A DNA stretch of 64,000 nt from Candidatus Hinthialibacter antarcticus. Its GTDB lineage: Bacteria; Hinthialibacterota; Hinthialibacteria; Hinthialibacterales; Hinthialibacteraceae. A program made the translations under genes and the position numbers. How positions within the stretch are numbered: position 1 is the stretch's first letter; each line of letters opens with the position of its first letter. Where the stretch lies: contig JAVCCE010000015.1 of NCBI GenBank assembly GCA_030765645.1, positions 186,001 through 250,000 on the forward strand, in the 5' to 3' direction. Below the pieces are notes generated by a model. It saw only the letters and a program-made list of their open reading frames with translations. It made no database searches and was not told the DNA's origin. Shown here one piece after another: positions 1,152 to 55,803 of this stretch.

Positions 1152-1306
1152 CCATATCCTTCGAATGAGATTTTTCTAAGTAATTGTAGTGAATCCAAGA
1201 CGATATATAAAGTTATTTCGCTGGGATTTTAGAAATATATCCAATGGCTCACCGTTGAGTGAAGTTGGACCGGGCTTTCGTAGACGCCATCTCAAAAATC
1301 CTTCAT

Positions 1307-1369
1307 CGTTCGCTGCGTACGGGCTTTCAGGCCCTGATGCACAGGCGCTCCCGGAGTTGCACCCATGCC
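1307..1369 (-). repeat. Degenerate copy A of the ~77-bp palindromic element
   Basis: Lies in the 284-bp gap between the S41 protease and the O-antigen-ligase-like gene. It matches the copies at 15137, 40576 and 55694 over the hairpin core GGGCTTTCAGGCCC, the CACAGGCGCTC segment and one end (GTTGCACCCATGCC). The other end has diverged and the second inverted repeat is not recognisable. I see nothing else in this gap. Confidence 0.75.
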
Positions 1370-1435
1370 AAAATTGGTCTGTCAATTGTTAAAAGGTTGC
1401 AAGATTTTTCGTCATCATTGTTATTGAGACCGCTT

Positions 1436-3925
1436 CTAGTATACCTGAAGTATCGGCGCCAGCAGCTGATTGACTAATACGAAGCGAAACGGCTCCAATT
1501 GGGCCGCGTCGACGCCCGCATCAACCGCACGGCGCCAGCCGATTATAGACTCAAACGGATGGCCGCCCAGAGAAGAAACGATCATCGAATAATACCACAC
1601 GGCTGAATCACCCGCAACCCGCTCTTTTTGTTGAAGTTCGAGCAAGAAGTCCCGCGCTGGCTCATACTCGCCCCGGCTGAGGCGCTGTAACAAAATATCC
1701 GACAGTAATTTTTGAAAGAGCGCCCGGTTTTCATCGCTCCATTGGACGCTTGCCGCGACAACATACACATCTTCCGCCAGATCGAGGCGCTGGCTGCGAA
1801 TGTAAAATTCGACGGTTTGCCGGGCGACTTCAAAGTTGTGCGGGTCATTATGGGCGCTCATGCTAAATAGAAAGGCCGCCGAAAGCCAGTCGCCTCTCGC
1901 TTCTGCGCTGAACGCCGCTGGAAGCAATGAGCGCTCGACGAACCCGGGGAATTTCAAGGTCAGTTCGCTGACAAAATACAGCCCCTCTTCAGTGCGCCCG
2001 GTCTTGCCCAAGGCGAGTGCCAGCCAACTCAGCACGTCTTCATCGGTGGGCATAATTTTTGACGACGCGGTGAAGGCCTGGATCGCTTTTTCTGCGTCTT
2101 CGGGCGATTGCGAATGTTCCCACGCCCATAAATAGGCTTGTCCTAAATAGGTATAGACGCCGTAATAGGTGTAACTTTTGAGCGTCTCTTCAAACAGTTC
2201 AATACTACGCCGGACTTGTTCAACGTCACTCGCTAATTTGCCGCGTTCGTAGGTATCAATCGCCAAAATATATCGGTTGGAACCCAGTTCGGGCGCAATT
2301 TCAATCGAACGCTGTAAACTGAGATAGCCCCATTCAAGCCATTGGTTTGCCCCGTCCCTATCGCCTTCGGCGGTCAGATTGGCGGCGGCGACCCCATAGC
2401 GTCCATGCAATTTGGCAAGGTAATCGGCCAGCATGTATTGATAGACTGGCATCGCGGTAATGAAGAACGCAACCACGCCAACCGCCCCCATCGCCCATTT
2501 TTGAGGCGCAGCGAGTTTGGTCAGCCAGTCCGGCGACCACTCACGGAATTTGGGCGAAGCCAGGTGGGCGACCAGCGCCCAGTTGGCGATGAACAAACAA
2601 CTCGCCGGGGCTTCATGAAAGGGGAACCCAAACAACGCGCGGGTCATGGTCGCCAGGGTTGCCGTCGCGGCGAAAATCCCCAGCAATGACCGCTTGTCAT
2701 AGAGCAACTGACCAATACATCGCAAATGAACGGTAAACAGCCAAATCATCAGCAATAAGCCGGGCAGCCCCAATTCGGCCCAGGCCTGAAAATAGTCGTT
2801 GTGCGCCCGTTGGGTGATAGACCCCACAGGAGGAAGCCCGATCGAGGTTCGGGGGTGCGCCTCAAACCACTCGCTTTGATACTCAGGATACTGTTGCATC
2901 CATGACGCGAAACCGACGCCGGTCAGCGGCTTGTCTTTCACCATTTGCAGCGACATCCACCAGACGCGCGGGTAGGTTCCGGTCATGAGGTCCTGGTAGG
3001 AGGTGGTGAAGCGCCCGAAGACATTCTGATTGACGAACTCTGAACGCGGCATCATCCATACGGCGAATAAGACAACGATAAACAGCGCCCCAAGACTAAG
3101 CCCGCGCAGCGCCCATTGGCGTATCGCCTGTTTGGCTTCTTCGTGCGAGTCGCCAAACGCCCAACGCAACCCGGCGCGCTGGAACGCATAGACCAAAAAC
3201 AGCGTTGTGGTGATTAACATCAGGGCGACGCCGCGGCTTCCGCCGAGAATGATTAATGCCAATCCCAACAAAACATACGCCGCCGTGAAGACGCGCAGCC
3301 CGACGCTTCGCGCGCGAAGGCCGATGGCGCCAGCGAGGATGCAGGCAATGGCGATGTAGCCCGTGCTGGGGTTGTTATGCCCGAGAAATGAGCAAAGAAA
3401 CTGGCGCTCGTAGGAACCTTTCGACAAGGTCATCGCTTCAAAGCCGGGAAATGCAAACCCCGGCGTATCGGTCGACATCTGGCGCAAGCAGCCCAACATC
3501 ACGCACATGCCCGTGAAGAAGACCGTCCAGACAAACAGGCTGCGGAATTTTTTATAGCGAAAACACACCGTCCAAAGCGGAAACGCCGACAGCAACGCGA
3601 AAAAGATATACCCGTGATAAAGCGCCGACTCGTCCGGGGCGGAAAAGGTTCGCAACGCCGCCCACGCAGCGAACAACAAAACGGGCGCGTCGTATGGCGT
3701 CTTCGCCAGGGTAAACCGCCCGACCGCCAAACAATGGCCCAAATAGGCCAGCCACGCCGACAACGCGAGAACTTGCCCCAGCAAAAATTTGTTGATTAAG
3801 ACATCGGTGAAATGCCCGTTGTAATACAACGCGGTAGAGACCAACTGAAAACACAGCAGGCATAGGGTTAGATGTAAAAACACGGTAGGCCGAGTCGCGA
3901 GATCGGCTTTGGGCCGTTTAACCAT
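1436..3925 (-). CDS. O-antigen ligase/Wzy_C-like membrane protein with C-terminal TPR domain
   Basis: An 829-residue polytopic protein. About ten or more hydrophobic segments fill residues 15-500. The large Wzy_C/O-antigen-ligase loop carries GGSRGVALML near residue 230, TGVGFASWMQQYPEYQ near 335 and the typical QRAHNDYFQAWAELGLPG near 370. Known members transfer or polymerise undecaprenyl-linked glycans on the periplasmic face. From about residue 520 to the end the chain becomes soluble and helical with TPR-like repeats (for example YGVYTYLGQAYLWAWEHSQ), an architecture common in large O-antigen ligase family proteins of uncultured phyla. The start overlaps the stop of the upstream histidine kinase as TAATG, so the two are probably translationally coupled. 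No lipopolysaccharide or capsule cluster is adjacent. The acceptor (lipid A, protein or exopolysaccharide) cannot be read from sequence. Confidence 0.85.
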   Translation of the reverse strand: MVKRPKADLATRPTVFLHLTLCLLCFQLVSTALYYNGHFTDVLINKFLLGQVLALSAWLAYLGHCLAVGRFTLAKTPYDAPVLLFAAWAALRTFSAPDESALYHGYIFFALLSAFPLWTVCFRYKKFRSLFVWTVFFTGMCVMLGCLRQMSTDTPGFAFPGFEAMTLSKGSYERQFLCSFLGHNNPSTGYIAIACILAGAIGLRARSVGLRVFTAAYVLLGLALIILGGSRGVALMLITTTLFLVYAFQRAGLRWAFGDSHEEAKQAIRQWALRGLSLGALFIVVLFAVWMMPRSEFVNQNVFGRFTTSYQDLMTGTYPRVWWMSLQMVKDKPLTGVGFASWMQQYPEYQSEWFEAHPRTSIGLPPVGSITQRAHNDYFQAWAELGLPGLLLMIWLFTVHLRCIGQLLYDKRSLLGIFAATATLATMTRALFGFPFHEAPASCLFIANWALVAHLASPKFREWSPDWLTKLAAPQKWAMGAVGVVAFFITAMPVYQYMLADYLAKLHGRYGVAAANLTAEGDRDGANQWLEWGYLSLQRSIEIAPELGSNRYILAIDTYERGKLASDVEQVRRSIELFEETLKSYTYYGVYTYLGQAYLWAWEHSQSPEDAEKAIQAFTASSKIMPTDEDVLSWLALALGKTGRTEEGLYFVSELTLKFPGFVERSLLPAAFSAEARGDWLSAAFLFSMSAHNDPHNFEVARQTVEFYIRSQRLDLAEDVYVVAASVQWSDENRALFQKLLSDILLQRLSRGEYEPARDFLLELQQKERVAGDSAVWYYSMIVSSLGGHPFESIIGWRRAVDAGVDAAQLEPFRFVLVNQLLAPILQVY

Positions 3926-15076: not shown

Positions 15077-15136
15077 CCTTTGAGCAAAAAGATTCATCCG
15101 GTTCCGGCATATCAAAAATTGCCAAACAAGATTAGG

Positions 15137-15213
15137 TATGGGTGCAACTCTGGGAGCGCCTGTGCATAAGGGCCTGAAAGCCCGCACTGAAGCGAGCAGA
15201 GTTGTACCCATGC
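15137..15213 (+). repeat. ~77-bp palindromic element, copy B
   Basis: Starts ATGGGTGCAACTCTG and ends CAGAGTTGTACCCATGC, so the termini are nearly perfect inverted repeats. The centre can form GGGC-CTGAAA-GCCC flanked by GTGC/GCAC. It is almost identical to copies at 40576 (reverse) and 55694 (same orientation). It lies between the DUF559 remnant and the first bPH2 gene. The surrounding 15077-15340 holds nothing else that I recognise. Confidence 0.85.
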
Positions 15214-15340
15214 CTATTGCAGAGAAATAAAAAAGTATCCAATTTACAGAAGAACCAGAAAAGATTTCTCATTCATCTACAATGGCGCCGCTTGGAATCT
15301 TGGGCATTGAATGGAACAATAGAGAAAACAGCAAAAGAGA

Positions 15341-40453: not shown

Positions 40454-40575
40454 TAGATTCCTTCAAACCAAAAGCGACGTATCACTGTATTAAACGAACG
40501 CGCGTTTAAATTGTCTTGCTGGCGCCACCCAAATTAATTACCATTTTTTAACAATTTGACCGTTTGTTGCGAAAC

Positions 40576-40653
40576 GCATGGGTACAACTCTGCTCGCTTC
40601 AGTGCGGGCTTTCAGGCCCTGATGCACAGGCGCTCCCAGAATTGCACCCATGC
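40576..40653 (-). repeat. ~77-bp palindromic element, copy C
   Basis: On the plus strand it runs GCATGGGTACAACTCTG to TTGCACCCATGC, the reverse orientation of copies at 15137 and 55694. Both 17-base ends are present with one or two mismatches. The core GGGCTTTCAGGCCC forms the apical hairpin. It lies in the 295-bp gap between the TPR lipoprotein and the HIT gene; the rest of the gap shows nothing recognisable. Confidence 0.85.
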
Positions 40654-40748
40654 CAACGTTGGTTTATCTAAATGTGATATGCTTAATTCTCTATTCAAAA
40701 ACGATTGATAACGAGATGGCTTCTCGACAGATTGTATTCTCAACAATC

Positions 40749-55651: not shown

Positions 55652-55693
55652 TTAGAAGCGATCTCAAAACGACTTGTCATTTCATCGTGAAAG

Positions 55694-55772
55694 GCATGGG
55701 TGCAACTCTGAGAGCGCCTGTGCATAAGGGCCTGGAAGCCCGCACTGAAGCGAGCAGAGTTATACCCATGCC
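55694..55772 (+). repeat. ~77-bp palindromic element, copy D
   Basis: Begins GCATGGGTGCAACTCTG and ends CAGAGTTATACCCATGC. It is nearly identical to copy B at 15137, with scattered single-base changes, including one that leaves the apical GGGCCTGGAAGCCC hairpin paired. It lies between higA and the terminator at 55804. Confidence 0.85.
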
Positions 55773-55803
55773 GCTCGCTGCAAAACGATTTATTTTATAC
55801 ACA

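Follow-up and report, generated by a model that had tools for sequence, protein, structure and literature searches.

The 64-kb stretch of DNA analysed here, referred to as the window, contains four sites occupied by a long palindrome that folds as a hairpin and is designated H. The unit measures 80 bp, GGCATGGG...CCCATGCC, slightly more than the 77 bp of the original prediction, which had described a palindrome with 17-bp inverted ends in four copies at 1307 (degenerate), 15137, 40576 and 55694. A covariance model recovers exactly four sites in the window, at 1291-1369 (-), 15135-15214 (+), 40575-40654 (-) and 55693-55772 (+), and the first of these proves to possess a single arm, its other half having been deleted. 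All four copies are intergenic and both orientations are represented, as had been described. Chance is a poor account of them, since the 17-mer arm, with up to three mismatches allowed, matches seven times in the window against 0.10 expected. The proposed long imperfect stem-loop is likewise borne out by the three complete copies, which fold far better than shuffled sequences (z -4.2 to -7.4).

When the copies are aligned together with their flanks, the H units of the window are seen to sit inside larger elements, the true ends of which lie 35-110 bp further out. The palindrome itself stands, but its 17-bp "ends" are hairpin arms and not transposon ends; mobility belongs to two larger MITEs, termed class A and class B. 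The intact H at 15135-15214 (+; covariance model R1, 100.3 bits; fold -50.9 kcal/mol, z -7.4) forms the core of the only class B member in the window, an ISL3-type MITE at 15091-15256 (+) shortened to 166 bp by an internal deletion. Its left end GATTCATCCGG and right end CAGAAGAACC match GGTTCATCCGG...CGGAAGAACC, and it is bordered by a degenerate 8-bp target duplication read from the sequence, with a left copy AGCAAAAA at 15083-15090 and a right copy AGAAAAGA at 15257-15264 that agree at six of eight positions.

The copies at the 1307, 40576 and 55694 sites belong to class A. The first lies in a MITE of 154 bp at 1283-1436 (-), recognised from its sequence by a TIR match, AGACGCCATCTCAAAA, and flanked by TA on both sides (1281-1282 and 1437-1438). 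It holds a half-unit of H from which the second arm has been deleted, and the remnant at 1291-1369 (-; 33.8 bits) retains only the arm at 1352-1368. An O-antigen-ligase-like gene (1436-3925, -) ends at this border, its TAG stop codon (window 1436-1438) being made up of the last base of the MITE and the adjoining TA. The intact H at 40575-40654 (-; 89.1 bits and fold) lies within a class A MITE read from the sequence at 40537-40723 (-), with a clear end at 40723 (GAGATGGCTTC) and, near 40537, a degenerate one of approximate coordinate. The remaining intact H, at 55693-55772 (+; 96.6 bits and fold), occupies a class A remnant at 55655-55800 (+) with the left end AGAAGCGATCTCAAAA, a TA at 55653-55654, and a degenerate right end of approximate coordinate; the left flank of this remnant looks like a right flank in inverted form.

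The expectation of many copies genome-wide, as opposed to only the four of the window, is amply confirmed. Across the 5.15-Mb genome (78 contigs), arm matches number 238 on the forward and 249 on the reverse strand, against one and one for a reversed control pattern. In 2.0 Mb of large contigs, 117 H copies or parts were found, from which a total of about 300 is estimated by extrapolation. These occur in three contexts within the one genome: stand-alone, within class A MITEs and within class B MITEs. No match above the gathering score was obtained in Rfam 15 for the window or for one stand-alone H; only generic microRNA hairpins came up.

Class A elements have the ends GAAGCCATCTCAAAA ... TTTTGAGATGGCTTC, which typically span 186 bp around a central H, and the median length is 182 bp. 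TA borders 12 of 21 left ends and nine of 21 right ends, and is present on both sides of the first window copy. Class A accordingly has the inverted ends and TA borders of a TA-target MITE of the IS630- or IS5-like kind. It is given no IS family assignment, because neither PF01609 (DDE_Tnp_1) nor PF13358 (DDE_3) has a match in the genome, and no autonomous class A transposase turned up. A search for long multi-copy IS elements in 1.18 Mb of the genome returned only a tandem pair.

Class B elements end in GGTTCATCCGGTAAGTGAGTACC ... GGAAGAACC, measure about 232-262 bp, with most members falling within 219-263 bp, and are gene-free. Their target duplications are well defined: seven or eight of eight flanking bases are identical in 19 of 33 elements, against a shuffled mean of 1.6 (maximum 6), and the identity between flanks has a sharp maximum of 0.71 at a length of 8 bp, falling to 0.48 for 7 and 0.44 for 9. 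ISL3 elements generate target duplications of 8 bp. An ISL3-family transposase (PF01610) is encoded in the same genome as C-terminal fragments only. Three of these lie at contig ends, where a multi-copy IS that had collapsed in assembly would be expected to leave them; the assembly contains no complete ISL3 element. The left end of class B coincides with the final codons and 3' terminus of the PF01610 gene, with GGTTCATCCGGTAAATGAGTACCTACATTGATGGATGG found there at C37, C30 and C77; the reading frame closes with ...KIMAIHQCRYSFTG*, and the class B left end is the DNA outward from that point. In another genome, the last codons of an ISL3 protein with 63% identity likewise overlap a GGCTCATCC end, and a complete ISL3 element of a class-mate carries a GGTTCTTC inverted repeat. 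Because one end is shared with the 3' end of the PF01610 gene and because ISL3 relatives end alike, the class B MITEs were, judging from sequence, most likely moved by the ISL3 transposase of the same genome. Class B elements of 416-426 bp containing two H units each, with an interior as if tandemly duplicated, were also observed (C57:158693 and 158859; C55:5425 and 5668). A class B MITE or the ISL3 gene is interrupted at the ends of many contigs, including C1, C7, C9, C12, C16, C20, C37 and C77, and since contigs break inside these sequences, they explain a large part of why the assembly is so fragmented.

About 30 copies of H in 2.3 Mb lie outside both MITE classes, corresponding to about 70 genome-wide by extrapolation. 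The original prediction of a mobile non-autonomous element holds for H as a part of such elements, and H exists outside them as well. Gene contexts are approximate, because genes were called as greedy longest open frames, and with that qualification 15 of 33 stand-alone copies are flanked by convergent genes, where 17% would be expected (p=1e-4), four of 33 lie between divergent genes against 32% expected, and 15 of 44 facing stop codons are within 30 bp, H often lying 10-45 bp from the stop. The inner part, GAGCGCCTGTGCA...GGGC...GCCCGCACYGAAGCG, is nearly fixed in these copies. The outer arms differ from copy to copy yet stay paired, as in GGCTTGGG/CCCAAGCC, GGTGCGGG/CCCGCACC and GGAGCGGG/CCCGCTCC. 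Compensatory changes, the absence of which had been taken in the original prediction to count against a functional or mobile unit, are abundant, with 87 double-changed cells against 31.9 in shuffled and 19-32 in slid alignments, above every control. The stem even reaches into unrelated flanking DNA, where pairing extends for a mean of 2.9 bp, compared with 1.2 +/- 0.19 after the right flanks had been swapped between copies. At one arm pair (alignment A4, columns 17/79), 17 of the 26 stand-alone copies have A-C on one strand, which is G-U on the other, and none has G-U on the first strand, a bias that points to a strand preference.

The view of the original prediction, that H is itself a small MITE with terminal inverted repeats of 17-18 bp, is hard to reconcile with these arms. 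H does have inverted ends, and dispersed copies do exist outside the class A and B contexts. The direct target duplications that had been proposed as a check, however, are found around class B, whereas the flanks of stand-alone copies are complementary and not directly repeated; the arms vary between copies and remain paired, unlike ends bound by a transposase; and no transposon with such ends was recognised in the genome. This identity is very unlikely. Mobilisation as a REP/REPIN-type element by a RAYT (Y1 tyrosine transposase) is hardly more attractive and is also distinctly unlikely, even though H is an extragenic palindrome with a bias towards convergent genes and some tandem copies, and two copies lie about 300 bp downstream of a RAYT-like pseudogene at C1:146816. 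The definition of a REP element includes a terminal GTAG or CGTC tag on one side (PMC3733652), and in the alignments the ends of H read GGC...GCC; at 80 bp, H is far longer than a REP of 20-40 bp; and none of three Y1_Tnp loci tested is directly flanked by it. The linked transposase that had been anticipated has a likely candidate for class B, in the ISL3 gene that shares its end, and none among the Y1 genes tested.

The C1:146816 region (L157 1327-1422 and about 1910) contains a frameshifted Y1_Tnp gene with a different palindrome, GGGGAGGGCGAACCTCCTGGTGAGCCG...CGGCTCG, on both sides, which is likely a REPIN that has a gene of its own. There are 21 occurrences of GGAGGGCGAACCTCC in 2.3 Mb, and further palindromic repeats are common, with 15 exact copies of GGTGGGTTAAGAACCCACC, 17 of CCCCCCTTTTTAAGGGGGG and 24 of GGCGCTGAAAGCGCC in the same 2.3 Mb; some other palindromic repeats are inserted into H (L029, L018). 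An integron attC identity was considered for H and rejected, as the RYYYAAC/GTTRRRY boxes are lost in divergent copies.

A stronger competitor is that stand-alone H is mainly a transcript-end element, that is, a long intrinsic terminator or mRNA 3'-end hairpin under selection, with mobility secondary, as suggested for the pneumococcal SPRITE. Its enrichment just past stop codons and between convergent genes, its depletion between divergent genes and the strong covariation of its arms would all be explained. On the sense strand of the nearer gene, T is found at 61% of the first four positions past the hairpin, though not uniformly, and a U-tract is absent from many copies. Similarly, 11 of 14 codirectional copies share an orientation trend, but at p=0.06 this bias is not significant. 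The paired flanks are not simply an A-run facing a T-run, as one position shows seven C-G and five T-A among 20 Watson-Crick pairs, the inner sequence of about 45 nt is conserved far beyond the needs of a terminator, and a terminator scan was empty at the MITE-borne window copy. As a principal role, this is possible, although on balance we are inclined to doubt it.

The process that keeps the hairpin perfect can be approached by comparing the settings in which it is found. Over arm pairs 1-8, copies within MITEs show 38 one-sided and ten two-sided changes and stand-alone copies eight and 31 (p=4e-8), a contrast that may in part be a matter of time, because the two sets differ in age. The arms of MITE-borne H thus decay on one side. 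Among the two-sided changes, 31 are of transversion type and 17 of transition type, and intermediates are rare, with five G-U and four A-C cells in the ten outer arm pairs. Template switching between inverted arms produces two-sided changes of this kind and can invert the spacer (PMC8794818, PMC8604942). One such case may be seen at C12:25029, where the core of a MITE-borne H is inverted relative to its flanks, although core inversions, a prediction of template switching, are rare among H copies. Selection alone could also yield covariation between arms. We infer that template switching during replication, perhaps aided by some selection on the hairpin as a transcript end or terminator, is what keeps stand-alone H perfect. 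A bolder extension, in which stand-alone H would be a self-repairing palindrome that keeps its arms identical, copies host bases across to give each copy a private stem, and spreads through a hairpin or single-stranded intermediate and not by a classical transposase, is unlikely.

The relationship among the three forms can be read from what class B has retained. Beside H, class B holds class A material, including the inner left flank TACGAAAA..TTCCGGC..TTGACAAACCAATTCA, and some long class B copies (e.g. C45:106844) carry a diverged class A right end that includes GGCTTCTA. Diversity is greatest in stand-alone copies (mean identity 0.80), followed by class A (0.88) and class B (0.92), and in a tree of H copies the stand-alone members separate from the MITE-borne ones with seven label changes against 23 when shuffled. 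No paralogous empty sites were found; the one BLAST match led back to the locus itself, which holds two elements side by side. The simplest order of capture is inferred to be from stand-alone H to class A to class B, although the junctions that support the direction from A to B are partly degenerate. On this evidence, H is probably an old, dispersed extragenic palindrome, maintained in perfect form by template switching and/or selection, that was captured by one MITE and then by an ISL3-type MITE and so amplified. The near-perfect stand-alone hairpin just downstream of genes would be the original form; one copy would have become the interior of a TA-flanked MITE of about 186 bp, and a class A-like copy would in turn have been enclosed between ISL3-type ends to form the second MITE, later copies of which shed parts. 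Each class would have spread by means of its own transposase.

The family looks confined to the Hinthialibacter lineage. The covariance-model search of related genomes that had been proposed found no relative of H in 98 genomes, including 13 class-mates, with the best 47-150 candidates per genome scored, such that weak relatives might be missed. Exact-pattern scans of 84,980 species genomes, which would not pick up a close relative still to be sequenced and from which the host and very near genomes were left out, found no MITE form and the core once; this match, on a Synechococcus contig, apparently lies in coding sequence and is without arms, and is taken as chance. No H was found on viral contigs.

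One hairpin in three settings provides a natural comparison, as its arms stay paired when it stands alone and decay in both MITE types. With it one can ask which of two causes, selection or template switching, lies behind the compensatory changes of repeated hairpins, a distinction that is usually blurred in studies of RNA covariation. It also provides a record of how two transposon systems captured one palindrome in turn, and repeats that bear it account for where the assembly breaks.

Each component of this system has known counterparts. The closest published case is that of the pneumococcal BOX, RUP and SPRITE repeats, short extragenic families nested in each other, among them a long hairpin at gene 3' ends (PMC3049150). 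SPRITE consists of an 18-bp duplex with a long U-rich tract (PMC3049150), whereas H is an imperfect hairpin of 80 bp with a conserved inner sequence and no regular U-tract, and H, unlike the pneumococcal repeats, came to form the inner part of two distinct MITE families. REP/REPIN elements are likewise high-copy extragenic palindromes biased towards the ends of convergent or codirectional genes, some lying inside larger palindromes (PMC3733652, PMC3116915). Stand-alone H is sited in the same manner, being extragenic, mainly between convergent or codirectional genes and near 3' ends; it differs in its longer unit and in having neither the GTAG/CGTC tag nor a flanking RAYT gene. Quasipalindromes corrected by template switching share with H arms held identical by two-sided changes, and spacer inversion (PMC8794818, PMC8604942), but H displays the pattern over dozens of dispersed copies and into host flanks, where the same mechanism would presumably be at work. 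Finally, class B resembles other ISL3-family MITEs in its gene-free interior, its 8-bp duplications and ends that match an ISL3 IS down to the 3' codons of the transposase, and differs in that this interior is a captured palindrome-bearing MITE and not deleted ISL3 sequence. The ends and duplication mark class B as an ISL3-type MITE, class A is a MITE flanked by TA, and the whole is a variation on known kinds of element.
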